From: Bacteroidota bacterium | Lineage (GTDB): Bacteria; Bacteroidota; Ignavibacteria; Ignavibacteriales; Ignavibacteriaceae | Assembly (NCBI GenBank): GCA_021815405.1 | Contig: JAKAGV010000021.1 | Coordinates: 1-64,000 of the forward strand | Direction: 5' to 3' | Length of the DNA: 64,000 nucleotides | Part shown: piece by piece, positions 62-43,772 of the stretch | Position numbering within the stretch: the stretch's first letter is position 1 | Layout: every line of letters begins with the position of its first letter | Position numbers and translations under genes: made by a program | Notes under the pieces: generated by a model | Databases searched by the model: none | What the model saw: the letters and a program-made list of their open reading frames with translations, nothing else | What the model was told of the DNA's origin: nothing

Positions 62-73
62 TATTTATTAATC

Positions 74-102
74 AATTTTGTGAAATCAGTGAAATCTGTG
101 TC
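74..102. repeat. AGACAC/GTGTCT-family repeat at a stop codon
   Basis: Reading on the minus strand, the TGA stop of the neighbouring secreted-protein gene continues directly into GACACAGATTTCACTGATTTCAC. This is a single arm of the palindromic repeat family that is dense in the cas locus (13.2-24.4 kb) and also occurs at 28.7 and 41.7 kb. Confidence 0.7.
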
Positions 103-1827
103 TCACTTCAGAAGCATCAGCTTCTTAACTTGACTAATGCTTCCGGCAGTTAATCTATAAAAATACACTCCGCTTGCAAGATGATATCTTTCTGCCGAAA
201 GCTGAATGCTGTACTTGCCTGCCTGCTGTTCCCTATCTACAAGTGTTGCCAGCTCCTTTCCTAAAATATCATAAATTTTTAAAACAACTTTGCTTTGCTT
301 CGGCAATTCATATTCAATTGTTGTAGAAGGATTAAAAGGATTCGGATAATTCTGCAGTAATTTATATTGAACAGGAACATATTTTATATTCAGAGTCTTT
401 GAGTAAGCAAACTTGCCATTAATATCAATTTGCTTTAATCGATATTCATAGTCGCTTCCATTTATATTGCTATTTCCATTTGCATTCAATTGATCCACAA
501 AAGAATAATGCTTAGGAGAATTACTGTTCCCGCTCCCTTTCACAAAACCAATCTTCTGCCATGTAGCAGTTTCCCCTCCTTGGAGGGGCAGGGGTGGGAT
601 TGCTCTTTCCACTTCAAACCCGTAATTATTCACTTCCGTTGCCGTTTGCCAATTCAACTCAACTTTATCGCCAAGATTATATGCGGTAAAAGTCGTAATC
701 TCTACAGGCAATGGTTTAAGATTCTGTAAATAAGGATAACTGAAATTAGTTCCCTGAGTAATAGTCCAAGTAGTTGAGAAATCCCATCCGGAGAAAGTTG
801 ATTGTGTCATCATATTTGAATTTGTTTCGCCTGTTCCTCCGGCACTGCTTGACCGCCCGGAAGTATTTGAATCCCAATAGCTATTGTTTACCGATGCACC
901 TGATTCCGCTCCTATAAACCCCCCTGCAGTACCACTTGAATTTACCCATCCGCTGCTGAAGCAGTTATCTACTGTACCACCTTCTTGATTTAATCCGATA
1001 AAACCGCCGCCAACATTATTTGCGTTGCCGCTTATGCTAACATTCCCAGTACTATAGCAGTTGGATATTGTAGCAGTGGATGTACCGGCAAGCCCGCCAA
1101 CATAACTACTGTCTGTGCTGCTAACAATGATATTTCCGGTACTGTAGCAGTTCGATATTGAACCGCCCGATATACCGACAAGCCCACCGACATTTCCTAC
1201 ATTTGATGATGTAATATTTACGGAGCTGTATGAATTCTGTATAGTGCCGTAATTGTCACCAACCAAACCTCCTACATCTGTTGCAGCACTTGAGCCAATA
1301 ATTCTTCCTGTAGTATAACAATTGATAATAGACCCGCCGCTAACTAACATGCCGGTAAGTGCTCCTATTTTACTAGTTATTTGCATTAGTATTACATCGG
1401 CATTTTTAATACCAAGGTTCTCAATTACACCTTTAGTTTCTCCAAATAAACCTGAAATCCCGGCATACCTATATACACGAAGATTGGAAATCGTATGCCC
1501 GTTCCCATCATAAGTGCCGTTAAATGGATTGCTATCACTAATACCGATGGGACTAATTCCTCCTCCGGAATTCAAGTTATAACTAGCTGATGCATCAATA
1601 TCCGAAGTCTGTTTGAAATAATATGATGATGTAGAATCGGCAAAAGAGCCACCCCACACAGAATCGGTTACAGAGAGCCAGTAAAGGTTATTGAAGTTAG
1701 CTATAAGGTACGGATCAGCCTGTGTTCCGCTGCCGGATGGTGCAACTGCGGTTTGAGCCTGCAGCTTTGGCAACAAAATATTTACCGCTATAAAAATGAT
1801 TAACAATACTTTGTATATGTGTTTCAT
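103..1827 (-). CDS. Secreted GLUG-repeat protein with T9SS sorting domain
   Basis: 574-aa protein with an N-terminal signal peptide (hydrophobic stretch about 7-20, cleavage probably after LQAQ). Residues about 85-340 hold degenerate GLUG-type repeats (GGLVG followed by xISNCYSTGxI), as in bacterial surface adhesins and IgA-peptidase-like proteins. A short FnIII-like segment follows (PLPVEITTF..., about 373-470), then a type A T9SS C-terminal domain with NYPNPFNPSTTIEY, SGVYFYR and a final KKLMLLK. It should be exported across the inner membrane, moved by T9SS and displayed or released. The catalytic or binding role is unknown; surface attachment is the usual guess for this architecture. Its stop codon is followed at once by the GACACAGATTTCAC repeat that recurs in the cas region. 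No partner gene is evident next to it. Confidence 0.85.
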   Translation of the reverse strand: MKHIYKVLLIIFIAVNILLPKLQAQTAVAPSGSGTQADPYLIANFNNLYWLSVTDSVWGGSFADSTSSYYFKQTSDIDASASYNLNSGGGISPIGISDSNPFNGTYDGNGHTISNLRVYRYAGISGLFGETKGVIENLGIKNADVILMQITSKIGALTGMLVSGGSIINCYTTGRIIGSSAATDVGGLVGDNYGTIQNSYSSVNITSSNVGNVGGLVGISGGSISNCYSTGNIIVSSTDSSYVGGLAGTSTATISNCYSTGNVSISGNANNVGGGFIGLNQEGGTVDNCFSSGWVNSSGTAGGFIGAESGASVNNSYWDSNTSGRSSSAGGTGETNSNMMTQSTFSGWDFSTTWTITQGTNFSYPYLQNLKPLPVEITTFTAYNLGDKVELNWQTATEVNNYGFEVERAIPPLPLQGGETATWQKIGFVKGSGNSNSPKHYSFVDQLNANGNSNINGSDYEYRLKQIDINGKFAYSKTLNIKYVPVQYKLLQNYPNPFNPSTTIEYELPKQSKVVLKIYDILGKELATLVDREQQAGKYSIQLSAERYHLASGVYFYRLTAGSISQVKKLMLLK

Positions 1828-12922: not shown

Positions 12923-13189
12923 TTAAATAAAACTATCAACCTCATTTTTCGCTATCCCTATTACTTCCCTTCCAGAATAGCTCATCGATTCAAATGTGTA
13001 AACTATTACACTGTCCTTTTCCTTGTTTATTATCTCCTTTATCCCGGCTTTTATTTTCTCAAATCCACTTTCGGTAACTTCGCCTTCAAATACAGAGTTC
13101 TGCACCCAAGTCAAATTCTGACGAAGATATTTAAGCAGCTTCGTTCCGCGCTTCTGGGATATTATATCATAAACTAAAATTACATACAT
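12923..13189 (-). CDS. cas2: CRISPR-associated endoribonuclease-fold protein Cas2
   Basis: 88 aa, normal length for Cas2. The ferredoxin-like first strand MYVILVYDI carries the conserved Asp (D8). It is followed by RGTKLLKYLRQNLTWVQNSVFEG, the typical Cas2 helix and second strand. It forms the Cas1-Cas2 integrase that inserts new spacers at the leader. The start codon at 13189 is preceded directly by the palindromic repeat ending AATCTGTGTCTG, with no Shine-Dalgarno sequence, while the stop lies in the target duplication of a MITE. Both ends of the gene have therefore been reshaped by repeats. It is separated from cas1 by an inserted GxxExxY gene. Confidence 0.95.
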   Translation of the reverse strand: MYVILVYDIISQKRGTKLLKYLRQNLTWVQNSVFEGEVTESGFEKIKAGIKEIINKEKDSVIVYTFESMSYSGREVIGIAKNEVDSFI

Positions 13190-13190
13190 C

Positions 13191-13222
13191 AGACACAGAT
13201 TCCACTGATTTCACAGAGAGAC
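13191..13222. repeat. AGACAC/GTGTCT-family repeat upstream of cas2
   Basis: AGACACAGATTCCACTGATT followed by TCACAGAGAGAC lies one base before the cas2 start codon (minus strand). It occupies the place where a ribosome-binding site would be expected. It forms the left bracket of the GxxExxY insertion; the right bracket is at 13712-13899. Confidence 0.75.
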
Positions 13223-13306
13223 AAGCCTCTATTAAAAATAATAAATTAAAAACATTAAATATATTTTATCACAAATAGCTAATATTTCAATTTCAGAAAA
13301 AAAGAA

Positions 13307-13684
13307 TTATTTGGTTAAAATTACCCTTTTATAGACAAGCGAGTCTTCACCAAAATTTATTAGTAATCCTAATCTTAATTTTGATGTCGCCAGGTAATTT
13401 AATGTTTGTTTTATATGTCCACTCGAGATTGATTCCATTGCTTTCGCCTCTAAGATTATTTTTTCAAATACTAAAAAATCTGCGTTATAATAATGCGGAA
13501 GTACGAATTCCTTATAAGAAATTTTATACCCGACTTCTCTTCTGTAAGGAATGTTGCTTTTTTGTAGTTCTATTTCCAATGCATCTTTATAAACTACTTC
13601 ATTAAATCCTTTGCCTAATATTTTGTGCACTTCCATACAACATCCAATTATTTTGTAGGTTTCTTCCTGATAAAGGTAATTCAT
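13307..13684 (-). CDS. GxxExxY protein (PD-(D/E)XK nuclease-like)
   Basis: 125 aa, the usual length of the GxxExxY family (PDDEXK_3). The signature is G26-x-x-E29-x-x-Y32 (GFNEVVY). A nuclease-like core has D69 in YYNADFLVF and E79-A-K81 in IILEAKAME. It has a good ribosome-binding site (AAGGAGT, 4 nt before ATG). It is inserted in the same orientation between cas1 and cas2, which are normally adjacent, and is bracketed by copies of the AGACAC repeat. Members of this family are scattered in many genomes as solitary genes with no agreed function. Whether this one acts in adaptation, or is simply a mobile cassette that landed here, cannot be told from the sequence. Confidence 0.85.
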   Translation of the reverse strand: MNYLYQEETYKIIGCCMEVHKILGKGFNEVVYKDALEIELQKSNIPYRREVGYKISYKEFVLPHYYNADFLVFEKIILEAKAMESISSGHIKQTLNYLATSKLRLGLLINFGEDSLVYKRVILTK

Positions 13685-13711
13685 ATATACTCCTTTGGCT
13701 TATTTCATTAT

Positions 13712-13899
13712 CAGACACTGATTTCACAAATTTCACAGACTTAATTATAAAACAATTTTTGTGTAATTTGAATCCGCGTAATCAGTGTAATCTGTGTCTT
13801 TTAATTTTTCGTGTAATTTGAATCAGCGTAATCAGTGTAATCTGTGTCTGTTAAATTATCGTGTAATCTGAATCAGTGTAATCTGTGTAATCTGTGTCT
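13712..13899. repeat. Palindromic repeat plus three 50-bp tandem units after cas1
   Basis: Begins with CAGACACTGATTTCACAAAT (13712 on) and continues with three tandem units starting GTGTAATTTGAATC or close to it at 13761, 13811 and 13861, an exact 50-bp period. Each unit ends AATCTGTGTCT. The last unit touches the cas1 stop codon: on the minus strand the TAG is followed by AGACACAGATTACACAGATT minus its first bases. It fills nearly all of the space between cas1 and the GxxExxY gene. Confidence 0.85.
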
Positions 13900-14994
13900 C
13901 TACCACCAGATCTTAAACGGCTTATATTCCTTCTCCCCCAAAATATGTTTAATTATTTTATAGCACTCCAGTCTAATCAGATGCCTATAGCTTACCGACT
14001 TCTTCAGACTCCTATGCTTAATTGTTGTCTTCAGCTTCTCATCATACTCTTTCAAGTAAATTTTTCTCCCCTCATCATTAAGATGGCACAAATTCATTCC
14101 CTTTGTAAAATGCTTTTCTTGTATTTGTTTTTTATTCAGCAAAGAAAAAATTATCCTATCGCTAAGCAGCGGCTTAAATATTTCCGCAACATCAAGACTT
14201 AGCGAAAACCTCCTCTCTCCAGGCTCATGCAGAAAGCTTATCAACGGATTTAACTGTGTTTTATATATCTCACTTAACACTGTTGTATAGACAAGCGAAT
14301 TTCCAAAAGAGATCAAAGCATTCACCGGATTAGTCGGCGGATGCTTTTCCCTCTTCTCAAATGCTATCTCATCATTTATAATCAGGTTCCAAGCTTTGTA
14401 ATATGTTGAGCGGATATTTCCTTCTATCCCCATAAGTTCATGAACTTCAGTTGTACTGTTTATTTTGTCATAAAGCTCTTTTATTATTTCAAGAAACACT
14501 GACATATCCTTCTCGCGTGCATTGTGGTATTGAAGGTTTTTTATAATATTATCCGCCGCTCCCTCAACAAACTTACGTGCAATCGCTATCCTCTTCTCAT
14601 TGTCATTATACGCATTAACCTGTTCAACAAGCAGCTTACCTGAGACAAACGGTTCACGAGGATAAAATGATCCGCTGTAATACCCATAATAATTAAATAG
14701 ATGAAGTGTAATCTGTTTCTGTGCAATAAAGTTCAGAAATTTTGTATTGAACCTTAATTCACTGAAGCAATATATCGATTCAATATCCTCAACCGGAATA
14801 GGTCTTCTCGGTATTTGCTTTGGTTCCTCCGTCTCTTCTGAATTTTCTATGTCTTCATCTTCAACCTGAATTTCATCCTCTTGAATTTCCTCATCGGATT
14901 CCTCCGGCTCCTTACTTTCACCCGGTTCAAAATAAAGCGTGTTTTGCCTGCGGATTAACTTGCCGCTGCTGAATATGTAATAATTCCTTTTCAT
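13900..14994 (-). CDS. cas1: CRISPR integrase Cas1 with acidic insertion
   Basis: 364 aa from the ATG at 14994 (MKRNYYIFSSGKL); a GTG two codons upstream (15000) lies inside a repeat and is less likely. Catalytic residues are visible as E193 (GIEGNIRS), H258 (FLHEPG) and D270 (LSLDVAE) in GTG numbering. It is the type I-B form (LFNYYGYYSGSFYPRE). Between the first two beta strands, about residues 25-60, lies a run with 20 Asp/Glu in 36 positions (ESDEEIQEDEIQVEDEDIEN), much longer than the short linker common in I-B Cas1. There is no reverse-transcriptase or Cas4 fusion. The gene lacks a Shine-Dalgarno site because the GTGTCT repeat abuts the start. It is the nuclease-integrase of spacer acquisition, with Cas2 and Cas4. 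Confidence 0.96.
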   Translation of the reverse strand: MKRNYYIFSSGKLIRRQNTLYFEPGESKEPEESDEEIQEDEIQVEDEDIENSEETEEPKQIPRRPIPVEDIESIYCFSELRFNTKFLNFIAQKQITLHLFNYYGYYSGSFYPREPFVSGKLLVEQVNAYNDNEKRIAIARKFVEGAADNIIKNLQYHNAREKDMSVFLEIIKELYDKINSTTEVHELMGIEGNIRSTYYKAWNLIINDEIAFEKREKHPPTNPVNALISFGNSLVYTTVLSEIYKTQLNPLISFLHEPGERRFSLSLDVAEIFKPLLSDRIIFSLLNKKQIQEKHFTKGMNLCHLNDEGRKIYLKEYDEKLKTTIKHRSLKKSVSYRHLIRLECYKIIKHILGEKEYKPFKIWW

Positions 14995-15205
14995 AGACAC
15001 TGATTACACAAATTTTCGCAAATTTTTAATTATATCTTTTGAATTCATTTTTCTTAGCTTTACTAAATACAATTTTATTAAAACCTTTTATCAATTTTTT
15101 AGGTACATCTTACGTCAACAAATAATTATATTGGCTAAATCTTCATATAACATTTACCCTCCATATTTTATTTGTATTTCAGTGAAATCTGTGAAATCTG
15201 CGTCT
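14995..15205. repeat. Intergenic spacer cas4-cas1 framed by the AGACAC/GTGTCT repeat
   Basis: The 205-bp gap starts at the cas1 end with AGACACTGATTACACAAATT (14995 on) and ends at the cas4 stop with AGTGAAATCTGTGAAATCTG then CGTCT (15181-15205). The two arms are inverted relative to each other and touch the start codon of cas1 and the stop codon of cas4. The centre is A/T-rich with no gene. Confidence 0.7.
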
Positions 15206-15688
15206 CTAGACATAACACAGGTCATAATATGAACATTTTTTACAAAGCGGTATGTTTATTGTTTCTGGTGGATTAGGTAAATTAATTATTCTTTCAACAT
15301 CAGTTTTTATTTCGTCAAGTCTAATTTTATCAGCATCAGTAAATGTCACCTTTACCTTTTCTCTAAGCTTCGGATAATCAATCTCGCCTGTTACTCCCGA
15401 AACTCCCTTTTCCTCCAACACACTAATATAATATTTCACCTGCCATAAATGCAGTTCCCCCATTTTATCGGACTTTTTAACTTCATGTATTATTTTCGTC
15501 TTCTCATCATAAAAGTCCAGTACAATATCATCAATCTGTATTTCATGTTCTTCTCTTTTATAAGTAGATTCCGAAATGAACTTACCCATAGCAACAGTGT
15601 CGCTGTTCTGTTCCATATTAATTGAATGTGCAAAAAGCCAAAGATGTCGATGGCAGTGGAAATAATAGTTGATATGTGTGCCAGTCAT
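15206..15688 (-). CDS. cas4: CRISPR-associated Cas4 exonuclease
   Basis: 160 aa, typical compact I-B Cas4. It has the iron-sulfur Cys set, C12 (YYFHCHRHLW) and C149, C152, C158 (PLCKKCSYYDLC). The RecB-like nuclease residues are D58 in IVLDFYD, E69-x-K71 (IIHEVKK) and the QxxxY-type motif at 83-87 (QVKYY). Cas4 trims prespacers and selects the PAM end together with Cas1-Cas2. The start codon follows the cas3 stop by 4 bp, so it is translated from the same message. The stop codon merges with the AGACGCAGATTTCAC repeat. Confidence 0.95.
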   Translation of the reverse strand: MTGTHINYYFHCHRHLWLFAHSINMEQNSDTVAMGKFISESTYKREEHEIQIDDIVLDFYDEKTKIIHEVKKSDKMGELHLWQVKYYISVLEEKGVSGVTGEIDYPKLREKVKVTFTDADKIRLDEIKTDVERIINLPNPPETINIPLCKKCSYYDLCYV

Positions 15689-15692
15689 AGAT

Positions 15693-18365
15693 TTATAAAA
15701 TATTTACATCAGTCTCTAAATCAGTTATCAAACCGGTTTCGTATGAATATATATCTTTGTAAAAGTGTTTAGACAATTTTACAAATCCATATTTTTTTTC
15801 ACCTTCGTCACTGCGTTGAAAGAGTAAGTTTATAGTATTCTGATTATTCCATACGTTAAACGTGAATTTAGATATTATTGTTGAGATTATTTTAATGTCT
15901 ATTTTAGAACTGAATCCTCTTTCTTTATTCGATATAATTGATTCATAAACATCCCATACCGCCTCGCCATCAATCGTTTCGCTATTGCACATTTCTGGTT
16001 TATACTGTATAAGGAACTTAATTTCAGCTGAATTAAAATATTTTTTGTCAACTTCAGACGGGACGAAAACAGAAACAGTGTTATCTTTTATTAACTGAAA
16101 CTTTTTCTTTACTTCTCCGTAACGAAGCGAATTAATTTGACTAATGAAATCCGATAAATTATCAGAGAGATAAGGATCATTATTTGCTTTATTTATTCTT
16201 TCAAACACCTTCTCATAAAGTAAATCGAAATCCCTTGATCCTATTATTTCATTATATAATGATTCATCTATTGGTTTATATCTTAAATCTTTAACATAAA
16301 CTTTCTGCCTGTCTCCCGTATTAAAAATAAATAGTTCAGAATTTATTTTTGTTGCATTTCTATTTATTCTACCCGCAAACTGTTCTTCTGAATCAAGAAT
16401 TGCTTTGTCTTTAAACCCTAAATCCATATCTATATCAAGACCGGCTTCAATTACTTGCGTGCAAATTACAAGTATCTTCTTCTTCTTCGATTCATTGGAT
16501 TTTAGATAATTAATTATTTCCTTACGCCGTGGCTCTAATATTGTCCCTGTAATCAAATACAATTCATAATCACAAAATAATTGTGCCTCTAGAATATTTT
16601 TGTAAAACTTATGAGCTTTAGTTTTTGTTATAAATTCAATCATAGATTTTACTTCGTGGTGTGATAGATAATATTCTTCTGAGTGCTTATGCAATAATTC
16701 ACACAAACGGTTTAAGTCTTCGCCCTCTTTTAAGTAATCAAGTTTGATTTTTACTCTGTCTTTAAAATTAGGATTAGAGAAATACTCTTTTTTATTTTGA
16801 ACAAGATATACAAACTCATCCTTAGAAATATTGGTTTTATCAAGAAACAGTTTACTAATTTTGGGCAATGTTGCCGACATAACTATGAAAGTGATATTCA
16901 TTGCTTCAGAATATTTCTGAAGAAGATAATTTATTTTATCCCATTCAGAAGGATTGTAAGATTGCAGTTCATCAATTATTACAACCGAATTAGCAATACG
17001 ATGTAAAAGATAATTTGCCTCCTTTTCATTTGATATAAGGATATCGAAAAACTTAATATGAGATAATAAAACGAAGGGATAATTAACAAATAAATTATCA
17101 ATATAATTTTTCCAATTTACATCATACTCACCATCTTGTTCATCAGTGGTTGCCGCATTTCCTTTAAAAGAGGCTTTTGAGTGCACCTCTGTAATTTCCG
17201 AAAAGGTTAAACCAAGATTTTCGGTGAGCGACTTATAAGTTTGAGTTATTATTGTCGTAAAAGGGAACACATAAAATATTTTTGTAATATCATTCCGCTG
17301 TCTAAGGATTTCTGTTAATGCAAGAAGTGAGAGATTTGTTTTACCGGAACCCGTCGGGGCTTCTATATAGAATAACTTTTTCGAAATGTTATCTCTTATA
17401 TTAATAATTACTTCAGCCGACAATTTTTGACGCAATAAATTAAGATTACTTTCTGAAAATTTGTCCAATTCATCAAATTGCAATCCCTTGAAATAATCAA
17501 ATTGTTCATTCAACTTCTTGTTATATGAAATCTTGTATGTGTTTGAAATAATTTTTTCCCTAAGCTCTTCTTTCATCATACCAAAATCATTAATTGCCAT
17601 ACCATTCATATATTCGTTTGTTGCATAGTAATCGGCTGCAGTGAGCAAAGAATAATTGAGTTTCAGTAAAAAGAATAGGTTAAAATCAATTTTAAGACTG
17701 CTTTGGATCTTATCGTAATAGTCTGTCGTTCTCAAAAAAAAATTCACTTTATCATCGTTAGAGTGAATATTAGAAAAAATCATTCTATAGTCCTTTAAGT
17801 AGCCAACCACCTCATCATTAAATTCAGTCTCATTTACGTCATTAAAAAATGAATGATGTTTCAAAATTGGATACGCAAAGATTAATACAATCCCTAGTAA
17901 TCGGTTTTTATCGTTGTTTGCTATAGCGCTATTTATAACTTCATAGAAATGTGAACCAATAAATAGATACGCACTTAGTATGGAATGCTGAGAGCCGATT
18001 CCATTATTAGCATTTTGGAATTGTGGATTACCCATTTTTTTAATCTGAAAATTCTCGTTTACTTTACCATAATCATGGAAGTATACAGAATTTATAAAAA
18101 GTAATTTTATAAAATCTGCAATCTCTTCACGATTATTATAGCCGCCGTTAGTAACATAATTTGTGATAGCTGCATCTATAATTTTTTCAAGGTTGTTGTT
18201 TTTACAAAGCTCGATAAAGTATTTTAATACTAATTCAGTATGTGCGGAAAGAGTTTCTTTATTTTCGTAACTATCTAAAGTATGCGCAAAATACTTTTCT
18301 GCATTTTTTAACTTTTTATTAAGTTGAAAGTAGTCTGCTTCAAAAAATTTGTTAAATGCTTTCAT
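15693..18365 (-). CDS. cas3: CRISPR helicase-nuclease Cas3 (HD plus DExD/H)
   Basis: 890 aa. The N-terminal HD nuclease has H42 (SAHTELV), H97-D98 followed by GK (YFHDYGK), H127 (SQHSIL), H170-H171 and D245 (TAADYY). The superfamily 2 helicase has Walker A APTGSGKT (336-343), the Walker B-like DELQ (465-468), SAT (497-499) and motif VI in EQFAGRINRN. It unwinds and degrades target DNA after recruitment by Cascade. It lies 45 bp after cas5 and 4 bp before cas4. The length and motif set look intact, so the interference arm should be functional. Confidence 0.96.
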   Translation of the reverse strand: MKAFNKFFEADYFQLNKKLKNAEKYFAHTLDSYENKETLSAHTELVLKYFIELCKNNNLEKIIDAAITNYVTNGGYNNREEIADFIKLLFINSVYFHDYGKVNENFQIKKMGNPQFQNANNGIGSQHSILSAYLFIGSHFYEVINSAIANNDKNRLLGIVLIFAYPILKHHSFFNDVNETEFNDEVVGYLKDYRMIFSNIHSNDDKVNFFLRTTDYYDKIQSSLKIDFNLFFLLKLNYSLLTAADYYATNEYMNGMAINDFGMMKEELREKIISNTYKISYNKKLNEQFDYFKGLQFDELDKFSESNLNLLRQKLSAEVIINIRDNISKKLFYIEAPTGSGKTNLSLLALTEILRQRNDITKIFYVFPFTTIITQTYKSLTENLGLTFSEITEVHSKASFKGNAATTDEQDGEYDVNWKNYIDNLFVNYPFVLLSHIKFFDILISNEKEANYLLHRIANSVVIIDELQSYNPSEWDKINYLLQKYSEAMNITFIVMSATLPKISKLFLDKTNISKDEFVYLVQNKKEYFSNPNFKDRVKIKLDYLKEGEDLNRLCELLHKHSEEYYLSHHEVKSMIEFITKTKAHKFYKNILEAQLFCDYELYLITGTILEPRRKEIINYLKSNESKKKKILVICTQVIEAGLDIDMDLGFKDKAILDSEEQFAGRINRNATKINSELFIFNTGDRQKVYVKDLRYKPIDESLYNEIIGSRDFDLLYEKVFERINKANNDPYLSDNLSDFISQINSLRYGEVKKKFQLIKDNTVSVFVPSEVDKKYFNSAEIKFLIQYKPEMCNSETIDGEAVWDVYESIISNKERGFSSKIDIKIISTIISKFTFNVWNNQNTINLLFQRSDEGEKKYGFVKLSKHFYKDIYSYETGLITDLETDVNIL

Positions 18366-18410
18366 GATTTTATTATTAAAGGTGCATAAGTATAATTATG
18401 CACCTAATGT

Positions 18411-19208
18411 TCAGTTTAACTGTATGTATTTATTATCATCTAATAGATAAAGATTTTTCGGGATAAAAGATGGTAACAATTTTTTATTAGAATAAACAAA
18501 GTTTGAAAAACTATAATTGGTTGTAACCTTATCGAAACCTACCGGCAGATTTTCGAAGAAGATATAAAAGTTGAGATTATTTGGCTCGTTCCAATCAAAG
18601 ATCATATCAGCGATTTGCTCGGAATTTTTCCTAATAGTTTTTCCCTCTGGTTTTATAAATAAGTTCTGAATGATATAGCTCTCAGTCGGAACATCTTCAA
18701 TTGGTTCCCCATGGTCAATTACACTATTTATATCCCACCACAATTGAAAATCATTTTTACCGAGATAAGGAATATACTCAGCTTCTCCATTTATTAGATA
18801 GGTAAATAACTTTTTTTCATATTCACTATCCAAATCCAGAAGTAAATAAATTCGGTAGTAAGGTTCTATTATTGTTTGTTCTGCTACTATTAACGTACCT
18901 CCATCAAGGTTAGCATAACCCACACTATTATTGTATGTGATTACTGTTTTTGTAAAGTTGCCATTAAAAGAACTTAGTGGTTGTATTCCGACTTTTACAT
19001 TGCCAAGCATTTCGTAATACAACGGTTCTTTTTTCTTTTTAACATAACTTTGGTAATATCCACCAAGTCCAATAATTGAGCCAAGTATTCCAAGTAAAGC
19101 CGGTTTATGAAGGCAGTTATATGTTAAGTAAATACCTTCGTTAATATCCGGCTTTTTTAGAAATCCAAAACTTGCTTTTATATCAAAAGAGATTATTCTC
19201 TTATCCAT
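18411..19208 (-). CDS. cas5: Cascade subunit Cas5 (type I-B)
   Basis: 265 aa RAMP-fold protein. The start MDKRIISFDIKASFGFLKKP and the motif HKPALLGILGSIIGLGGYYQ are characteristic of the Cas5h/Cas5b N-terminus that caps the crRNA 5-prime tag. It is almost contiguous with cas7 (2 bp between the cas7 stop and this ATG), as in most I-B operons. No catalytic residues are expected, because Cas6 does the processing here. The gene appears complete. Confidence 0.93.
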   Translation of the reverse strand: MDKRIISFDIKASFGFLKKPDINEGIYLTYNCLHKPALLGILGSIIGLGGYYQSYVKKKKEPLYYEMLGNVKVGIQPLSSFNGNFTKTVITYNNSVGYANLDGGTLIVAEQTIIEPYYRIYLLLDLDSEYEKKLFTYLINGEAEYIPYLGKNDFQLWWDINSVIDHGEPIEDVPTESYIIQNLFIKPEGKTIRKNSEQIADMIFDWNEPNNLNFYIFFENLPVGFDKVTTNYSFSNFVYSNKKLLPSFIPKNLYLLDDNKYIQLN

Positions 19209-19210
19209 AA

Positions 19211-20491
19211 CTATATCTCATTATTATTAAGAATATTGAAATGCCTAATATTACCGCCTTTTGCCAAACCTTTAATAATTGTTGTTGATGGATTATAGTA
19301 AATTTCTATTTGTTCAACATCTGAAAAAATATGGGCAATAACTTCCTCAACTTTAGTTAAATCAATTTCTCTGTTTTCTTTCACTTCAATTAGCTCTGTT
19401 AAACTTGGCAGCATTTTTTTTGAGCCTTCTTTTAACTGTATCCAAATTGTAGCTTCATTCTCGGTACCTATTTTTCTTGATGAATCTAAAGCGGTCACAG
19501 AATTATTGAATGCTTCCTTAAGCTTATCTATATCTTCTATGCTAAGACAAAGTTTTTCTTCATCTTTTTTTTCTTTGTTAATCACTGAATAGAATTCATC
19601 TGTGTTTTTAGGATTAATTGAAAAATGAAATACATAATGACCTTCTTTTAAATTTGTTTGATTCCCTATCGTTGACATTTGTGCATCTTTTTTATCTGCA
19701 AAAGGTGATAAAATATCTTCGGTATACGGTTCATTAATTATATGTCCTTTCCCATCCTTAAAACGGTTTACTCCGTGATTAACTTGAACTGGTCCATGTA
19801 TAGAAATATTCACTTTATCAACACCATCAGCAAAAGTTGCACCGAATAACCTAATATCTCTACATGTTAAAAGGTTTCTAAGAGTTTCAAATTTGTTTAC
19901 ACCGCCAGTTAATAGGTTTTCCAATGCATCACAAATTTGTTTAATTTCTTCATCATCACCGTTTATTTTCTTAAGCATATCTTTTTGCTTATAATAAAAG
20001 CATTCCATTTCTTCTTGTGGTTTTTCAACTTTTGATTCTTCTATTACAATGACATCTTTACCCGCAAGTATCTCAAATTCTTTTTGATAATTAATTAATG
20101 GCGAATCCTTTTCTAAATCCTTGAAATAATCTGTGATTTGTTTTTTCTTTGAAATTTTGGGAAGTATTCCCTGTACATTTTCACCATCAAAGTAGAATAA
20201 ACAATACTTATCAATGCTGGCTTTTGGATAACTGCCAAATATATGTTTGTAAGTATCATTCAATGAAATTGGATTCATTTTCTCATTGTACCGTTTTACA
20301 TAGAATAGTTTTTCTTGGCCATCCATTTTCTTGAAATAATCCTTAATCGTGTATTTTAACGCTTTATCTGTAGAATAAACAACTCCATCTGGTAATGTTC
20401 TTGGATGATGTGTAAAATCAGCATTAAAATTCGAGTTTATAGATTTCAGAACAACTGCCCCAAATACTCTGTTTTTAAATTCTTGTAACAT
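19211..20491 (-). CDS. cas7: Cascade backbone subunit Cas7 (Csh2-like), enlarged
   Basis: 426 aa, longer than the roughly 280-330 aa usual for I-B Csh2/Cas7. The conserved parts are the N-terminal NRVFGAVVLKSINSNFNADF, the CRDIRLFGATFA strand at about 208-219, and the NISIHGPVQVNHGVNRF region. Extra sequence of about 100-120 residues sits between, roughly 80-205, including a lysine-rich and acidic helical part. The gene is placed exactly where Cas7 belongs (cas8-cas7-cas5). It polymerises along the crRNA spacer. The insertion may be a lineage-specific thumb or web extension. Confidence 0.92.
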   Translation of the reverse strand: MLQEFKNRVFGAVVLKSINSNFNADFTHHPRTLPDGVVYSTDKALKYTIKDYFKKMDGQEKLFYVKRYNEKMNPISLNDTYKHIFGSYPKASIDKYCLFYFDGENVQGILPKISKKKQITDYFKDLEKDSPLINYQKEFEILAGKDVIVIEESKVEKPQEEMECFYYKQKDMLKKINGDDEEIKQICDALENLLTGGVNKFETLRNLLTCRDIRLFGATFADGVDKVNISIHGPVQVNHGVNRFKDGKGHIINEPYTEDILSPFADKKDAQMSTIGNQTNLKEGHYVFHFSINPKNTDEFYSVINKEKKDEEKLCLSIEDIDKLKEAFNNSVTALDSSRKIGTENEATIWIQLKEGSKKMLPSLTELIEVKENREIDLTKVEEVIAHIFSDVEQIEIYYNPSTTIIKGLAKGGNIRHFNILNNNEI

Positions 20492-20508
20492 TTTAAGTAC
20501 TCCTTTTA

Positions 20509-22350
20509 TTAATTATTTAATTTTTCTAAAATCATTGACTGAGAAAAATAACCAGCAAGTATTATCGGAAGTAGTCCTTTAACATCTTGTTCGCATTCAT
20601 AGCCCAGTATTTCGCTGGTAAGTTTTTCAAAACGACCTTTTCCAGATTCCCCGTACCAATCAAACGCATGCTTATATTGATTTATTCCTCTAAGAATCGC
20701 TTCATGAAATAATTTGGGATCGTTCTTGTTAATGAAAGGCTCCAACAGGGCGTGTGATTTATTATTCGATTTACTTTTTCTTATGATACAATAAATCAAT
20801 TGCCCCGCTGCAAATGCGAAGTCTTGATCTGTCAAAATATGATAATCATTATCATTTAGTAACTTTCTCATATTCCCCAGGTATTCTGGAATTTTTGTGG
20901 CCATAGTTTTATCTCCTAAATATTTGAAATTGTTATTTTGCTTATCAAAATGATGGTTGAGCGAAAAGAGGATATTAAGTTTTTCCTTAATGGCAAAGTC
21001 TTTGGAATGCTTATTGTCTTTATATTCATCATGCCTAATATCATCAATTATTATTGGCATTAGTAAATCATAGAAAATATTTCCGTCAATTGCATTTTCT
21101 TTCGATTTATAAACATAATCATAGAAGTTTTTACGATACTTCAGAATGTTTTGATAATTTGTCTGCGTTGTGTATTGCGGATCAATGTCATCGAAATACT
21201 TAAAAAGGAAAGTTTCTTTTTTTGTTTTTACAATTAATGAATTGTTAAATATTTTTTGAACAACATTTAATTCAAAATCAAATACGTTTTTGATTGGCTC
21301 TTTATCTTGTATATTCGGTAAACCAAACAAATTATTAACAGCAAACTTTTCAAGATAAAATTTGAATTTTGACACGTAATCAATATCATTGATAACAATA
21401 CCCATTCTATTAGCCCAATTTATCAAGTAGTAATTTGAAATATCCTCTGCTCGTTGTTCAAATAATTGACGAATGATATCCCTAAAAGACTGATTCCTAT
21501 CGCGATTATAAATTCTTACGAATTCCTTGTTCAGTTCTTCTTTATCAATAAATATAGGTACAGTATTGGGTAGCTTTTTGTTTTTTAACAATCTTTCAAA
21601 TTGGTAAAGTTTTACTGGGACTTTATCTTTTTTAGAAATTCGGTTATTTATGCCGTCCTTAATTAAGGATGTTTTATGCATCATGAAAGCTTTTTTTGAA
21701 TTAGCTCCGTTTAAGAAACCACTTAATCCCCAAATATCATTTCCTTTTTCATCATCAATGTTAAAATCATCTTTGTTGAAAAGATTAGCAGAGAGATAAT
21801 TCTCTTGGCTCAGTTTCATCTTTTCAATAGTGGTGTTGAAATAAACATAAATATCATTCTTTGTATCAACCTTTTCAAGTTTAGGCTCTTTCAATAACCT
21901 TTTAACAAGATTACTAGTGCAATATTTTTCTATAAAATCAATCTTGTCAAATTCTTCTTCGTTCACGTATTGGCGGCAGCTTGTGAAATAATCATTAAGA
22001 ATTGCACTCAATTGATTTATGCTGCTACTTTTAAATGATAAAGAATACGGAGTTGATGTGTGAATTTTTTTATTTTTAATATCAACGGCTTTGTTGGTTG
22101 AAATTATTTGAGAGTAGTAACACCGGAGTTCAAGTTGATCGTTATTAACAACTTCAATTAATTTACTTTCTTCTGTTAAGTCAAAACATTTTCCCTTTTT
22201 ATCAAAAATAAAACTCCTCCAACCATTCTCTTTTAAATTACCATTTTCATCCAACTCAATAAGAATATGCAAACCCGGTGAAGGACTTAGCCCTTCCGTA
22301 TGATATTCTTTAGGTATGGTATCAATAAAATTTGCTATTTCTTGTATCAT
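20509..22350 (-). CDS. cas8b: Cascade large subunit Cas8b (Csh1-like)
   Basis: 613 aa, in the size range of Cas8b/Csh1. Overall similarity is weak, as is normal for this subunit. Recognition rests on the N-terminus (FIDTIPKEYHTEGLSPSPGL), the C-terminal helical block ending LPIILAGYFSQSMIL, and its position immediately before cas7. Cas8b should recognise the PAM and recruit Cas3; the C-terminal domain can also give rise to a separate Cas11-like small subunit in I-B systems, but no strong internal start was identified. It is preceded by a 490-bp gap full of palindromic repeats rather than a plain promoter. Confidence 0.88.
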   Translation of the reverse strand: MIQEIANFIDTIPKEYHTEGLSPSPGLHILIELDENGNLKENGWRSFIFDKKGKCFDLTEESKLIEVVNNDQLELRCYYSQIISTNKAVDIKNKKIHTSTPYSLSFKSSSINQLSAILNDYFTSCRQYVNEEEFDKIDFIEKYCTSNLVKRLLKEPKLEKVDTKNDIYVYFNTTIEKMKLSQENYLSANLFNKDDFNIDDEKGNDIWGLSGFLNGANSKKAFMMHKTSLIKDGINNRISKKDKVPVKLYQFERLLKNKKLPNTVPIFIDKEELNKEFVRIYNRDRNQSFRDIIRQLFEQRAEDISNYYLINWANRMGIVINDIDYVSKFKFYLEKFAVNNLFGLPNIQDKEPIKNVFDFELNVVQKIFNNSLIVKTKKETFLFKYFDDIDPQYTTQTNYQNILKYRKNFYDYVYKSKENAIDGNIFYDLLMPIIIDDIRHDEYKDNKHSKDFAIKEKLNILFSLNHHFDKQNNNFKYLGDKTMATKIPEYLGNMRKLLNDNDYHILTDQDFAFAAGQLIYCIIRKSKSNNKSHALLEPFINKNDPKLFHEAILRGINQYKHAFDWYGESGKGRFEKLTSEILGYECEQDVKGLLPIILAGYFSQSMILEKLNN

Positions 22351-22842
22351 TCTTCCTCCTTAAAAATATTATTTAATCATTACTACCTTATAGTTATAAG
22401 CAGCACAGCTTCGCGCCGTTGCTCTATTACTCACAGACACTAATTACACGAATTATCACAAATTCAATTTTTTATAATCAGTGTTAATTTGTGAAATCTG
22501 TGTCTATACTTATGAAAGGCACCAATAAGAAAATGCTGGTAATCAAAAGGAATGGTTTGTGAATTTGCTGTTAAACAAAAATGTAATCTCACATTACACC
22601 TCTTAATAAATTTAGTTATTTCGTAATCTTTTAATAATGTAAATTTGTATAATTATAAGTGCAACTTCGCTCCGTCACTCCCAGACACTGATTACACAAA
22701 TTTTCACAAATTCAATTTTTAGAATTAGTGTAATAGGTATCCACAGCTTACACAGCTTTCCACAGCTTCATTTTTTAATCAGCAATAATCTGTGTCTACT
22801 CTTTTTAATTCGTGTTAATCTGTGAAATCTGTGTCTATTCTT
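22351..22842. repeat. Repeat-filled gap between the SpoVG-like gene and cas8b
   Basis: It contains a 71-bp palindromic element from AGACAC at 22435 to GTGTCT at 22505, and a second from AGACAC at 22684 to TGTGTCT at 22797. Two tandem units beginning CGTGTTAATCTGTG start at 22811 and 22849 (38-bp period), the second running into the SpoVG-like coding sequence. A further motif CCACAGCTTACACAGC lies at about 22741. No gene was found. RNA hairpins here could give differential expression of the downstream cas genes. Confidence 0.8.
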
Positions 22843-23112
22843 TTAATCCGTGTTAATCTGTGAAATCTGTGTCTTGTATCCATCAATCGCCATCTTCTCC
22901 AACTTAGCTTTCAAATCCTTTGGCACAATGACGTTCTCATAATACTTACCGTCTTTCCCCTTTTCATCTGGTGCGGAAATAAACAGACCATTTGCACCGT
23001 TCACAATGCGGAATCCTTTAATTATGATCTCTTCATTTGTCTGTATATCGAAATAAGCAGCAATCTTTCCGCTGCCGTTATTTTGCAGTGCATTCATTCT
23101 TACTATTTTCAT
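22843..23112 (-). CDS. SpoVG-like small protein in the cas operon
   Basis: 89 aa. The start KIVRMNALQNNGSGKIAAYF, the strand IKGFRIVNGANGLFISAPD and the following GKYYENVIVP match the layout of SpoVG (a conserved xxDIRVIxGxxGLFVxMP core, then a hydrophobic strand). SpoVG proteins are small DNA/RNA-binding regulators, first known from Bacillus sporulation and septation and also found in phages. Here the gene lies inside the cas operon between the WYL regulator and cas8b, on the same strand. Its last ten residues (KTQISQINTD) are encoded by the AGACACAGATTTCACAGATT repeat. It could bind the pre-crRNA or an operator; an anti-CRISPR or accessory origin is also possible. Confidence 0.7.
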   Translation of the reverse strand: MKIVRMNALQNNGSGKIAAYFDIQTNEEIIIKGFRIVNGANGLFISAPDEKGKDGKYYENVIVPKDLKAKLEKMAIDGYKTQISQINTD

Positions 23113-23154
23113 TTTTAATCCTTTCCTTTGATTGTTGGTTTATTTTACATGTCT

Positions 23155-23228
23155 GAATAAACTCTGATTTCACAAATTTCCACAGAATAATTTTTCTATC
23201 AGTGTAAATCAGTGTAATCTGTGTCTGG
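23155..23228. repeat. AGACAC/GTGTCT-family palindrome upstream of the SpoVG-like gene
   Basis: Left arm CTGATTTCACAAATTTCCAC and right arm TCAGTGTAATCTGTGTCT frame a short A/T loop. It occupies most of the gap between the WYL regulator and the SpoVG-like gene, together with an A/T-rich stretch at 23229-23307 in which no gene is seen. Confidence 0.7.
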
Positions 23229-23307
23229 ACCCAGTAATTATTTATCTCTTTACTTTCCTGAACTTAATCAAAGTATAAATTTTATCAGTAACATTTCATG
23301 ATACTTT

Positions 23308-24183
23308 TTAATCATAATTATTTAAAACCCCCTTTGCCGTTTTAATTACTAACTCCCTCAATTCTGAAGGTTCAATTACTATTACTCCTTCTCCGCGACT
23401 TACAATCCAGCTCGCTATTTCTTTCAACGAATTCACTACCGTTTCCAATATTTCAGATCCGTCTTTATCTTCTATTATTTTCTGCGACTCCATCAGCTTC
23501 CCCGGCTTCATCCTTTCTGTCCACGGCGGTAGCAGCCTAAGCCTTACTTTATACCTCTCATTACCTAACCAGCTCTTAAATGATGATGAAAATATCTCGT
23601 CAATCTGCTCTTGTTTTATTCTTTCGAATGTTTTATCAAGCTCCACTATCGATTTAATTTTAGTCAATATGAATTGTTTTATTGTCCCATTATGCCTTGC
23701 CAGCAAGCGCCAGTTCTTATCGCTTTGGAAAATACAATAAGGCTCTACATCCCGCTCTTCTATTATTATTTTTTCTTTGCCTGGATTTTCATCCACTTTT
23801 TCATATTTGATTCTAACAGCTCTCCCGTTATCAATGCAGCTTTGTAATGTCGTTAAAATTGGAACAGTTTGTATGTGATGCTTGCCAATTAAAAAGTTTG
23901 TAGCTTTGTTATAAGAGCTTTGATTTACAGCCATACCTATATATTGTAAAACCATATCCTTAATTGTTTCATCCGAAACCTTAGCCAGCACGCTTAATCC
24001 TTTTCCTTTTCTCGAATGGATATCGATGCCCATAGCCCTCAGCTCACTTAAATCCCTTTTAATCGTTAAGCTGTTTACTCCAAACAGTACTTCAAAATCA
24101 GTAATATAGAATGTATTGGGTTCCATTAACACTTTCCCCAATATCTCAAACTGCCTCTTAAATTTTGTTTTAAAGTCTTTCAT
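23308..24183 (-). CDS. WYL-domain transcriptional regulator
   Basis: 291 aa. The N-terminal winged helix-turn-helix is at about 5-75 (FYITDFEVLFGVNSLTIKRD then LSELRAMGIDIHSRKGKG). A WYL domain lies at about 120-200 (VRIKYEKVDENPG..., RDVEPYCIFQSDKNWRLLAR) and a WCX-like C-terminal extension at 225-285. WYL regulators are frequent in CRISPR-Cas and other defence loci, where they sense nucleic-acid ligands and repress or activate cas genes. This one sits within the operon between cas6 and the SpoVG-like gene, so autoregulation of the cas transcript is likely. Nothing is missing from the domain architecture. Confidence 0.92.
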   Translation of the reverse strand: MKDFKTKFKRQFEILGKVLMEPNTFYITDFEVLFGVNSLTIKRDLSELRAMGIDIHSRKGKGLSVLAKVSDETIKDMVLQYIGMAVNQSSYNKATNFLIGKHHIQTVPILTTLQSCIDNGRAVRIKYEKVDENPGKEKIIIEERDVEPYCIFQSDKNWRLLARHNGTIKQFILTKIKSIVELDKTFERIKQEQIDEIFSSSFKSWLGNERYKVRLRLLPPWTERMKPGKLMESQKIIEDKDGSEILETVVNSLKEIASWIVSRGEGVIVIEPSELRELVIKTAKGVLNNYD

Positions 24184-24239
24184 TGTTTTAGATTGAAAAT
24201 TTAATATAACATAACTTCGTCAGATCACTCCCATAAACC

Positions 24240-24375
24240 AGACACTGATTTCACTGATTTTCACAAATTCAATTTTTTAATCAGCGTAATCTGTGTCTGT
24301 TTATACATCAGCGTAATCTGTGTAATCTGTGTCTGCTTATATATCAGCGTAATCTGTGTAATCTGTGTCTGCCAG
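24240..24375. repeat. AGACAC/GTGTCT palindrome and tandem units overlapping the cas6 3-prime end
   Basis: A palindrome runs from CAGACACTGATTTCAC (24239 on) to CTGTGTCTG (about 24299). Two tandem units GCGTAATCTGTGTAATCTGT start at 24311 and 24348 (37-bp period). The second is translated as the last residues of Cas6. Confidence 0.8.
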
Positions 24376-25373: not shown

Positions 25374-25605
25374 TATATATTAATATATAGAGGGAAAAAC
25401 GCCTCTTTCGGAAAATTTGAAAAATATTTTTCTAAGTTTTTGTTTTCATTATTCACAACTAAAATGATTTAATGCAAAATTGTGGTATTCTATCAAAGAC
25501 AAATAATTGCATGAATTTTTTTAAATCTTGCTTATTTTTCTTACCTTTTAATCATGAAATTACCTTTCCTTCAACCGTCATCAGTACTACCTCCTACAAG
25601 CAATT

Positions 25606-28589: not shown

Positions 28590-28735
28590 TATTCTGGAGT
28601 TAAACTCCGGAACAAAACCAGTGCGGCAGTTTACCTCCCGCACAACAGACTATTTACTATTAAGACTCCGATTAAATCGGGGCTGGCTATTTGTTACCTT
28701 GTATTTTATTCGTGTTAACTCGTGAAATTCGTGTC
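28590..28735. other. Hairpin cluster and repeat between propeller gene and GH3
   Basis: Three small palindromes follow one another: GGAGTTAAACTCC (about 28598), GTGCGG...CCCGCAC (about 28621-28643) and CCGATTAAATCGG (about 28668). An AGACAC-family arm (GTGAAATTCGTGTCTTAC) abuts the stop codon of the upstream gene at 28736. They may act as a processing or attenuation zone between the two genes. Confidence 0.5.
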
Positions 28736-30007
28736 TTACTTAAGTAAAATCATCTTCTTAACCGAAACATAATTTCCGCCTTTACCATTCAAACCAGTTA
28801 CTTTTAATTTATAAAAGTAAATTCCACTCCCTATCCCCGACGCATTAAAGTTAATTGAATGAAGTCCTTCACTTTCATCCGCATTCACCAAAGTTTTTAT
28901 TTCCCTGCCGAGTGCATCGTATACTTTTAATTCAACCAAGCTTCTTGATGATAGCTGATAGTTTATCGTTGTCGATGGATTAAACGGATTGGGATAATTC
29001 TGGTAAAGTTTGAAATTATTAGCAACTACATTTTGATTTTGCTCTTTTACTGCAGTAATGATTTCTGAAATCTCTCTGCTCCATATCTCTCCGTTTAATG
29101 AGCCAGCAAACAGTTTTGTGCCGCTGACTGCAAGACAGTATATATATCCATCCGTTAATCCTGTATCTACAGGAGACCAGTTGCTGCCTGTATTCATCGA
29201 GACAAAAACTCCTTCACCTGAAGTTCCGACTATCAAATTTGGATGAATAATAGTTAAAGCACGGATGTATGTGTTAGTCAACCCTTGGTTCATCAATGTC
29301 CAACTGTAACCATTATCAGTACTGGAATATACTCCTTCATCATTTCCTATATAAACGTTCGGACCATCTCCCGTAACAGTATAAATATAAAGTTTAGTAA
29401 TTCCGGTATTACTTTGCATCCAGCTCTCACCTTTATCGTCAGAAACAAAAATTCCATCTCCCCAGGTGCCTGCAAAGAGACGGTTCTCTTTTACTCCTAG
29501 AACACGTACATTCAAATTAGTAAGACCATTGTTGACTTGTTTCCATGCAGTGTCATTTACTGAACAGGTAAAAATTCCTCCTCCCCAGGTACCTGTAAAA
29601 ACGCTGGAATCAATTACCTGAATTGAATAGATAAATTTGTTCGAGAGAGAAGGACTCGAACCAACCCAGGTTTTCCCGTTATCAGTCGATGTAAATATTC
29701 CGCTGCCGTAAGTCCCGATATATAATTTATTGTTTATAACTTTTATTGAATTAATATCTGAGGTAGTTAATCCAGTATCGATATACGTCCAGCTATTGCC
29801 ATTATCTTGAGATAAATAAAGGTTACCTCCAAGAGTTCCGGCATAAATATTTGAGCCGGATGTTTCCAGAGAAATTATTCTACCGGGCAAGGCGCCATGT
29901 CCACCCGGAGGATTAGGAAGAATAGTTTTAGTCCATTGCGCAAATAACCCATCTGAAGCTAAAGTAAAAATTCCTGCAATAATAAATAGTAAAAGATTTT
30001 TTTTCAT
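28736..30007 (-). CDS. Secreted Asp-box beta-propeller protein with T9SS domain
   Basis: 423 aa. Signal peptide about 1-24 (ending GLFAQ). Residues about 45-315 form a propeller of Asp-box/BNR-type repeats (STDNGKTW, SDDKGESW, STDNGYSW and similar, each after a GTxGxGIF strand). A type A T9SS sorting domain (NYPNPFNPSTTINY to KKMILLK) ends the protein. Such propellers bind ligands or cap surface complexes and usually lack enzymatic residues; no sialidase catalytic set is visible. It lies 26 bp after the PorV-like gene on the same strand, so it is probably cotranscribed with the TonB receptor group. Confidence 0.88.
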   Translation of the reverse strand: MKKNLLLFIIAGIFTLASDGLFAQWTKTILPNPPGGHGALPGRIISLETSGSNIYAGTLGGNLYLSQDNGNSWTYIDTGLTTSDINSIKVINNKLYIGTYGSGIFTSTDNGKTWVGSSPSLSNKFIYSIQVIDSSVFTGTWGGGIFTCSVNDTAWKQVNNGLTNLNVRVLGVKENRLFAGTWGDGIFVSDDKGESWMQSNTGITKLYIYTVTGDGPNVYIGNDEGVYSSTDNGYSWTLMNQGLTNTYIRALTIIHPNLIVGTSGEGVFVSMNTGSNWSPVDTGLTDGYIYCLAVSGTKLFAGSLNGEIWSREISEIITAVKEQNQNVVANNFKLYQNYPNPFNPSTTINYQLSSRSLVELKVYDALGREIKTLVNADESEGLHSINFNASGIGSGIYFYKLKVTGLNGKGGNYVSVKKMILLK

Positions 30008-41354: not shown

Positions 41355-41720
41355 GTAAAAAATCGAAGCCGAGTGATATATTATTAATAATTTGGATTGA
41401 TTTTCTCCTGATTAAAAAATCCTCTCTTATTAAATTGATAAAAGAGGCTTTATTATTCTAATAAAAAATTCCCTTGCCCTAATAATTTCTTGCCGCCTAA
41501 ATTTTATTAATATAAAACTTCGCCAGCATTGATGCGGCTGGCGAAATGCTAAAGACTCAATTGATATTTAATTATTTACTATAACAACATTCGTCACCTA
41601 ATATTTTACTTCAATATGAATCTCATTTATCATTTGTGTTAATTAGTGAAATTCGTGTCCTATTTACTCTTACGACATTTGTCGTCTAACATTCATCAGC
41701 GCAATCTGTGAAATCAGTGT
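41355..41720. other. Gap with stem-loops and AGACAC-family repeats between GH5 and symporter
   Basis: A 10-bp stem with one mismatch (CCTCTCTTAT...ATAAAAGAGG, about 41419-41447) precedes a T-rich run. A perfect 9-bp stem TTCGCCAGC...GCTGGCGAA lies at about 41519-41545. Two AGACAC-family arms (GTGAAATTCGTGTCC at about 41647 and GTGAAATCAGTGTCT at about 41708) follow, the second abutting the GH5 stop codon. No gene seen. Probable termination zone. Confidence 0.55.
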
Positions 41721-43721: not shown

Positions 43722-43772
43722 AAAATTCCCTATATAATCAGACACAATTTTTTAACAACAATCAAGCCAGAA

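Follow-up and report, generated by a model that had tools for sequence, protein, structure and literature searches.

A 64,000-nt stretch of DNA from a Bacteroidota bacterium of the family Ignavibacteriaceae (assembly GCA_021815405.1, contig JAKAGV010000021.1, positions 1 to 64,000 of the forward strand; hereafter the window) contains a cas operon whose gene borders are occupied by an imperfect palindromic repeat, AGACAC...GTGTCT. On balance, we favor the view that these repeats are the ends, and the end-only relics, of a mobile element resembling those based on repetitive extragenic palindromes (REPs). The full element would consist of one small Cas4/RecB-like nuclease gene, encoding a GxxExxY protein, between two inverted arms made of short words.

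The operon occupies 12923-25143 on the minus strand and encodes Cas6, a WYL-domain protein, a SpoVG-like protein, the cas8, cas7 and cas5 effectors, Cas3, Cas4, a type I-B Cas1, the GxxExxY protein and Cas2; cas8 is labeled by position only (no NCBIfam match), and the cas7 and cas5 matches are below the curated cut-offs. Arms are present at six of the ten junctions and absent from cas8/cas7, cas7/cas5, cas5/cas3 and cas3/cas4. The first-pass annotation had described the repeat as filling most gaps and punctuating the cas gene boundaries. The arms do sit at cas borders and occupy these six junctions, but four junctions are free of them, three of the genes that they bound (GxxExxY, SpoVG-like and WYL) are not cas genes, and further copies are found elsewhere in the genome. 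On the gene strand, a typical element starts with AGACACAGATT(T/A)CAC and ends with AATCAGTGTCT. Three junctions carry three tandem copies of the 5' arm, the last of which adjoins the upstream gene or sits within its end. The elements of the operon are as follows.

13191..13899, minus strand: composite element filling the cas1/cas2 junction, 0 bp from the cas1 stop codon and 1 bp from the cas2 ATG.
~13191-13220 and 13713-13736, minus strand: 3' arm copies of the composite element, followed by the GxxExxY gene.
13307..13684, minus strand: GxxExxY gene (TIGR04256 / PF13366 PDDEXK_3), predicted Cas4/RecB-like nuclease by profile match, residues and predicted fold.
Ends at 13799, 13849 and 13899, minus strand: three 5' arm copies of the composite element, beyond the GxxExxY gene.
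14995..15205, minus strand: 211-bp arm-bounded element without a listed open reading frame (ORF), filling the cas4/cas1 junction; fold -36.2 kcal/mol, z -2.54.
22435..22505, minus strand: 71-bp imperfect hairpin element; fold -17.1 kcal/mol, z -3.3.
22683..22874, minus strand: element with one 3' arm (22683) and three 5' arms (ends 22797, 22836, 22874); z -2.4 for 22683-22797.
23155..23226, minus strand: degenerate hairpin element in the gap between the WYL and SpoVG-like genes; z -1.3, 21/200 shuffles as good.
24240..24370, minus strand: element in the cas6/WYL gap with a 3' arm at 24240 and 5' arms ending at 24298, 24334 and 24370; fold of 24240-24298 -18.6 kcal/mol, z -4.6.

The contacts of arms noted in the first annotation, at the stop codons of cas1 and cas4 and the start codons of cas1 and cas2, are confirmed at distances of 0-1 bp: an arm ends at 0 bp from the stop codons of cas1 (13899/13900) and cas4 (15205/15206) and from the cas1 ATG at 14994, and 1 bp from the cas2 ATG (13189). 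For cas1, we took this ATG as the start rather than the GTG inside the arm (15000), at which the mechanical ORF starts, because ten of 11 orthologues begin with the corresponding ATGAAA (the remaining one has TTGAAA). The SpoVG-like and cas6 ORFs extend into an arm and terminate there, so that the arm supplies the last residues of both. In particular, the last 5' arm of 22683..22874 is translated as the C-terminus of the SpoVG-like ORF, and that of 24240..24370 as the Cas6 C-terminus, ...GLADTDYTDYADI, directly before the stop. Nested in the element at 22683-22797 is an array of a second word type, CACAGCTT (at 22740-22770).

The repeat is not specific to CRISPR loci. When one mismatch was allowed, AATCTGTGTCT matched the window 20 times, compared with 1.07 matches expected and a maximum of four in 100 shuffles; one of these matches (14710) lies within cas1 and is probably due to chance. 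Exact copies of AATCTGTGTCT number 20 in the 4.97-Mb genome, of which 13 are in the window and 12 in 13191-24375, while the reversed word, used as a control, has no exact copy in the whole genome. Twelve of the 20 exact arms are thus located in 11 kb around the GxxExxY gene of the cas locus. For GTGWAATCWGTGTCT, there are 24 exact copies in the genome, 15 of them in the window. Outside the operon, the window contains the following arms.

64..103, minus strand: solo arm (inner end approximate), with a 1-nt overlap with the stop codon of a gene carrying a type IX secretion system (T9SS) C-terminal domain (103-1827).
28706..28736, minus strand: variant solo arm AGACACGAATTTCACG, with a 1-nt overlap with the stop codon of a T9SS C-terminal-domain gene.
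41697..41722, minus strand: solo arm, with a 2-nt overlap with the stop codon of the glycoside hydrolase (GH5)/carbohydrate-binding module (CBM) gene 41721-43745, which also bears a T9SS C-terminal domain.
~41632-41660: second, variant arm near the GH5/CBM gene.

The overlaps of 1, 1 and 2 nt bear out the arms previously reported at the stop codons at 103, 28736 and 41721. To describe the placement of arms more generally, we collected them by the AGACAC start motif from the window and 16 further stretches of the same genome; of the 32 arms, one (L068, deep inside an ORF) was dropped. Of the 13 arms that lie away from the cas locus, ten have a stop codon within 2 bp; the corresponding share is 1.45% for 3995 positions drawn at random from the non-coding sequence and gene ends of these stretches. 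All ten have the order stop codon, then AGACAC, which had been proposed from the window, and the suggested comparison with random non-coding positions shows a placement far from random. The arm and the stop codon often share bases (T/AG, TG/A, TA/A). The remaining three arms are those of L060, L061 and L053, in the last of which an ORF continues through the arm. Of the ten stop-abutting arms, nine come after T9SS C-terminal-domain genes (the domain has 130 matches in the genome) and one after nuoM (L056).

Copying of a T9SS C-terminal module as the source of these arms is not supported by the similarity of the last 240 nt, the median being 0.67 for the nine arm-bearing T9SS genes and 0.68 for 28 other T9SS genes; one pair, L055 and the gene at window position 103, reaches 0.76 and could be duplicates. 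Mobilization of the AGACAC arms by a resident Y1/RAYT (REP-associated tyrosine) transposase was also rejected, as none of the five Y1 loci found in the genome has arms in the ~3.3 kb around it.

The GxxExxY protein of the window matches TIGR04256 with 137.2 bits (cut-off 35). G24, G26, E29, Y32, D69, E79, K81, Q93 and Y97 are invariant (34/34), and this set includes the D and E-x-K residues of PD-(D/E)XK nucleases (D69, E79, K81) and the QxxxY motif. Its AlphaFold2 model has a pLDDT (predicted local distance difference test) of 94.9. The best Foldseek matches were, in order, SSO0001 (4ic1), which we take to be a Cas4, an alkaline exonuclease, and the Cas4 Pcal_0546 (4r5q); 4ic1 was the only entry with E < 0.001, and the query-normalized TM-scores were 0.44-0.59. 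As the catalytic-type residues are intact and the modeled fold is Cas4/exonuclease-like, the protein is likely an active nuclease of the RecB/Cas4 type. In the two papers found to name GxxExxY, the passages with the name describe no repeats.

Hairpin-flanked GxxExxY elements are found across several phyla, often almost exactly at gene ends. Among the matches listed, GxxExxY genes occur in 82 and genes of four-helix proteins (TIGR02436, S23/IVP) in 93 of the 119 sampled genomes of the class. The class set comprised the 30 best-scoring loci of each family and two more GxxExxY genes of the source genome; one four-helix locus was dropped for a short flank. As the word pattern described below was picked after viewing this set, a second set provides the cleaner test. 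It consisted of the best 80 GxxExxY loci of a longer list from named genomes, of which three were dropped and 77 used, mostly from Bacteroidota, but also from Planctomycetota, Acidobacteria, Verrucomicrobia, Proteobacteria, and one Dehalococcoidia. Inverted repeats in the flanks exceeded all 60 shuffles at 21 of 32 GxxExxY and 15 of 29 four-helix loci and at none of 30 ParE controls; in the second set, significant inverted flanks were found at 55 of the 77 loci. The GxxExxY arms typically consist of CRC-n-RRR words, with CAC-n-GATT here and CAC-n-GAG or CGC-n-AAG elsewhere. At least two CRCRRA words in both flanks were present at 16/32 GxxExxY, 0/30 four-helix and 0/30 ParE loci, and at 41/77 loci of the second set.

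Strong inverted repeats are present at 32 class loci; 28 of these have a stop codon upstream, and 17 of the 28 lie at -16 to +6 bp from it. The stop side is nearer than the start side in 16 of the 22 loci measurable on both sides. In the second set, 21 of 50 loci with an upstream stop are within 6 bp of it. The inner gene is on the same strand as its upstream neighbor in 67/76 and 28/30 GxxExxY and 25/27 four-helix loci, against a background of 103/135 neighboring pairs in the second-set loci and 16/26 for ParE. On the downstream side, the strand excess is of marginal significance in the second set (p 0.05) and does not reach significance in the class sets. One four-helix protein (L110:16740-17102) weakly matches Avd of diversity-generating retroelements (E 3.7e-4, below the cut-off).

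Folding of the paired arms, which the first-pass annotation had suggested, shows that most full elements are predicted imperfect hairpins, better than shuffles. For six folded elements (five in the window and one in the congener G007), z ranges from -5.85 to -1.31, and five fold better than nearly all shuffles. Most predicted hairpins of AGACAC elements have an A-A mismatch at the linker position, that is, at the base between CRC and RRR. In the two sets, the linker base is mismatched in 30 of 77 cases (24 loci) and 58 of 157 (61 loci), and the C before it in only 1 of 76 and 3 of 162. The A/G-variable positions R2 and w5 match from arm to arm at 0.84-0.93, compared with 0.49-0.63 after shuffling between loci, whereas the linker match (0.61 and 0.63, compared with 0.52 and 0.58) stays within the shuffle range.

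We compared 12 cas1 loci including the window; Cas1 is 72-90% identical in the 11 relatives. The orthologous cas junctions are empty or occupied by other elements. Measured between the ends of tblastn matches, six relatives have a cas4-cas1 gap of 6-70 bp and the other five one of 592-1779 bp; the cas1/cas2 gap without an inserted gene is 4-126 bp. GxxExxY genes are present at one or the other of these junctions in the window, G043 and G037, and four-helix genes in G006, G051 (at both junctions, one copy having an internal stop) and G056. In G028, the cas4/cas1 junction contains a RAYT-like gene (67.8 bits, cut-off 80), with GTAG-type repeats from the cas4 stop codon onward. In G043, the arm AATCCGTGTAATCCGTGTCT directly adjoins the cas1 ATG. 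Four-helix elements (L149-L178) also share what appear by eye to be the same junctions elsewhere, nuoC/nuoD in four genomes and the kdsB side in three.

Other genes show what insertion does to gene ends. In G007, a 58-bp hairpin AGACAC...GTGTCT lies exactly between the stop codons of two convergent genes, one of them nuoN. In ten other congeners NuoN terminates at the matching residue, and the arm of G007 starts at this native stop. Downstream of nuoN, several congeners have a long spacer with a terminator-like hairpin (judged by eye), yet the arm begins at the stop; G000 has, also by eye, an apparent decayed arm copy at this site. The C-terminus of Cas6 is GFGLAVSRN in G006 and GFGLA-DTDYTDYADI here; the last ten residues are arm sequence, and the last four residues of the G006 version have been lost to an insertion just before the stop. 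In G000, the NuoM tail is longer and the start of the next gene is replaced by arm sequence. In the source genome, nuoM has an altered C-terminus and the adjacent CitMHS gene an arm-derived N-terminus compared with congeners (L056 / L259).

The neighborhood of the operon has several further features. The SpoVG-like and WYL genes, each bounded by arms, lie within it at 22843-24183. The cas locus of G006 also has a WYL gene (66%), and a SpoVG match is absent from the stretches searched in the 11 relatives, several of which cover the operon only in part. A CRISPR array extends from 7019 to about 12000 of the window, with at least 77 copies of the repeat ATTTCAATTCTATAGTAGTTCGATTAAAAC; a spacer starting TTTAGTAGATATGAGTGTAA is present twice. 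In the gap upstream of the operon (25595-25658), an 11-bp unit TGAATGCACTC forms five tandem copies.

If the repeats are parts of a mobile element, the arms would fold as an imperfect hairpin in single-stranded DNA (or RNA), and the GxxExxY nuclease would recognize and process it. Further solo arms and tandem copies nearby could arise from this processing, in the way that RAYT transposases may act on REPs, while selection would purge insertions inside genes, leaving copies at gene borders. Such selection very probably contributes to the border placement, and a genuine preference for the stop-codon end is likely. Mobility, hairpin processing by the nuclease, the spread of solo arms, the stop-codon preference and any RNA processing are inferred. 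The earlier suggestion of an element that inserts at gene borders, or that only gene borders tolerate, has good support from the non-random placement, the short element-free junctions in relatives and the nuoN site. Exact targeting of stop codons is not proved: the insertion in cas6 lies just before the stop, operon gaps are short enough to force closeness, and nine of the ten stop-abutting arms outside the cas locus follow one gene class.

Several observations weigh against a mobile element of this kind. Movement was not observed, and neither a target-site duplication nor an exact empty site was found for the full GxxExxY element. Significant inverted flanks are missing at 11/32 and 22/77 GxxExxY loci, and the loci sampled are top-scoring members of longer lists; in the source genome, the arms of the GxxExxY gene L051 are made of a different word, and L052 has no significant inverted flank. 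The similarity of arm words tracks that of the proteins weakly (Mantel test; 45/2000 and 65/2000 permutations as high). In addition, words are homogeneous within a locus and show no word-by-word covariation beyond a slight effect at R2 in the second set. Because shuffling words within loci changes little, arm homogenization is an alternative to base-by-base selection, and could mimic selection for a hairpin.

The arms might instead act at the RNA level, forming double-stranded RNA in the operon transcript that is cut by RNase III, so that the insertion, like an intervening sequence (IVS) of 23S rRNA, is excised from the mRNAs or separates them, and the closeness to stops and starts protects the coding parts. 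The folding of five of the six full elements, the common strand of the inner and upstream genes and the presence in sister elements of the S23/IVP four-helix gene known from 23S IVSs fit this scheme, as does the Coxiella IVS, which the excerpted text of PMC4990558 describes as having heptamers in tandem and inverted repeats at its termini and as being excised by RNase III. Still, we consider it unlikely, as solo arms stand at T9SS stops without a partner arm, the duplexes are weak due to long internal regions and recurrent mismatches, the strand bias on the downstream side fails to reach significance in the class sets, and rRNA was found at none of the 20 four-helix loci scanned (of 30). We give equally little credence to random insertion of a non-autonomous repeat, with purifying selection in gene-dense operons and short native gaps accounting for the contact with codons. 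The short gene-free gaps at cas4/cas1 and cas1/cas2 in relatives would agree with that, and the altered ends of Cas6, NuoM and the gene downstream of it demonstrate that near-stop insertions survive. However, 10/13 non-operon arms at stop codons is far above the level of random non-coding positions, the arm starts at the nuoN stop despite the long spacers of several congeners, and the stop side is the closer one in most paired loci, a bias to which protection of ribosome-binding sites could add.

Homing, with the nuclease cleaving a conserved gene end wherever an allele lacks the element and recombination then copying the element in, would place elements at the same junction in many species. 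The apparently shared nuoC/nuoD and kdsB-side junctions, the repeated occupation of the cas1 junctions, and the intact nuclease residues and fold are consistent with it; but shared junctions could reflect vertical inheritance, and homing leaves unexplained both the solo arms at unrelated stops and the differing element types at one junction, making it more doubtful still. A CRISPR-specific structured RNA or terminator regulating the cas operon is very improbable. In its favor, the part of PMC9067536 concerned gives 15 type I-B systems, most of them from Bacteroidetes, with a palindromic candidate spanning the stop codon of cas6, but we rejected it given the copies at non-cas genes: the same arms also border T9SS genes, nuoM and (in G007) nuoN, and GxxExxY elements elsewhere adjoin many other genes. 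Moreover, Rfam at the gathering score gave no match in the window.

Alongside the REP-like mobile element, we tentatively consider a wider scheme, possible though not the one we would expect to hold. In it, GxxExxY proteins would serve a class of mobile hairpin elements of their own, as stand-alone Cas4-like nucleases that move or maintain arms of CAC-n-GAG words with unpaired linkers and place them at stops, and the four-helix (S23/IVP) elements would form a parallel class including the 23S IVS as a special case. No description of these arms was found among the papers listed in searches of a library with few subscription journals and no bioRxiv preprints.

The candidate RNA CRISPRCas_133 (Fremin and Kyrpides, 2022) is, in the excerpt of PMC9067536, a palindrome overlapping the cas6 stop, similar in location, and compared by location only, to the element at 24240-24370. 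There it is a candidate RNA of CRISPR operons, whereas the AGACAC repeat occurs throughout the genome and is linked to a nuclease gene; judging from that excerpt, the two may be the same kind of element. The 23S IVS, as presented in the excerpt of PMC4990558, has a short ORF in the loop of terminal inverted repeats and, in Coxiella, tandem short words by the ORF. Similarly, four-helix genes lie between inverted arms in 15/29 loci, and terminal inverted repeats form a predicted stem both there and in the window elements (in one of the latter not better than in shuffles). Unlike IVSs, these elements lie between protein genes, with no rRNA match in the window or the scanned four-helix loci, and the window element bears GxxExxY rather than TIGR02436, which occupies the same junctions in other genomes.

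Among working systems, the REPtron comes closest; the available portions of PMC2817692 and PMC3733652 describe it as a small gene between inverted imperfect palindromes, with solo extragenic copies mostly downstream of genes; according to the former, REPs form local clusters near rayt genes in some genomes. The present element also has one small gene between inverted arms, extragenic solo copies downstream of genes and local clustering near the gene, and a RAYT-like gene with GTAG-type repeats occupies the same cas4/cas1 junction in G028. By contrast, the central gene here encodes a TIGR04256 nuclease of the Cas4/RecB fold and not a Y1 (HUH) tyrosine transposase, and the arms begin with AGACAC, lack the GTAG/CGTC tag and are arrays of short words with unpaired linkers. 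As the enzyme differs, the tag is missing and no Y1 gene found here carries arms, the AGACAC element is not a member of the REP/RAYT family. Two very common protein families of unclear role, GxxExxY and four-helix, gain a shared, testable anatomy, in which a single gene is enclosed by inverted word arrays that are specific to the family and stand at gene borders. Elements of this kind rewrite the last codons of genes such as cas6 and could account for a large class of the short repeats that lie between genes in environmental bacteria. They would also link 23S rRNA IVSs, REP/RAYT systems and AGACAC-type repeats as occupants of one niche.

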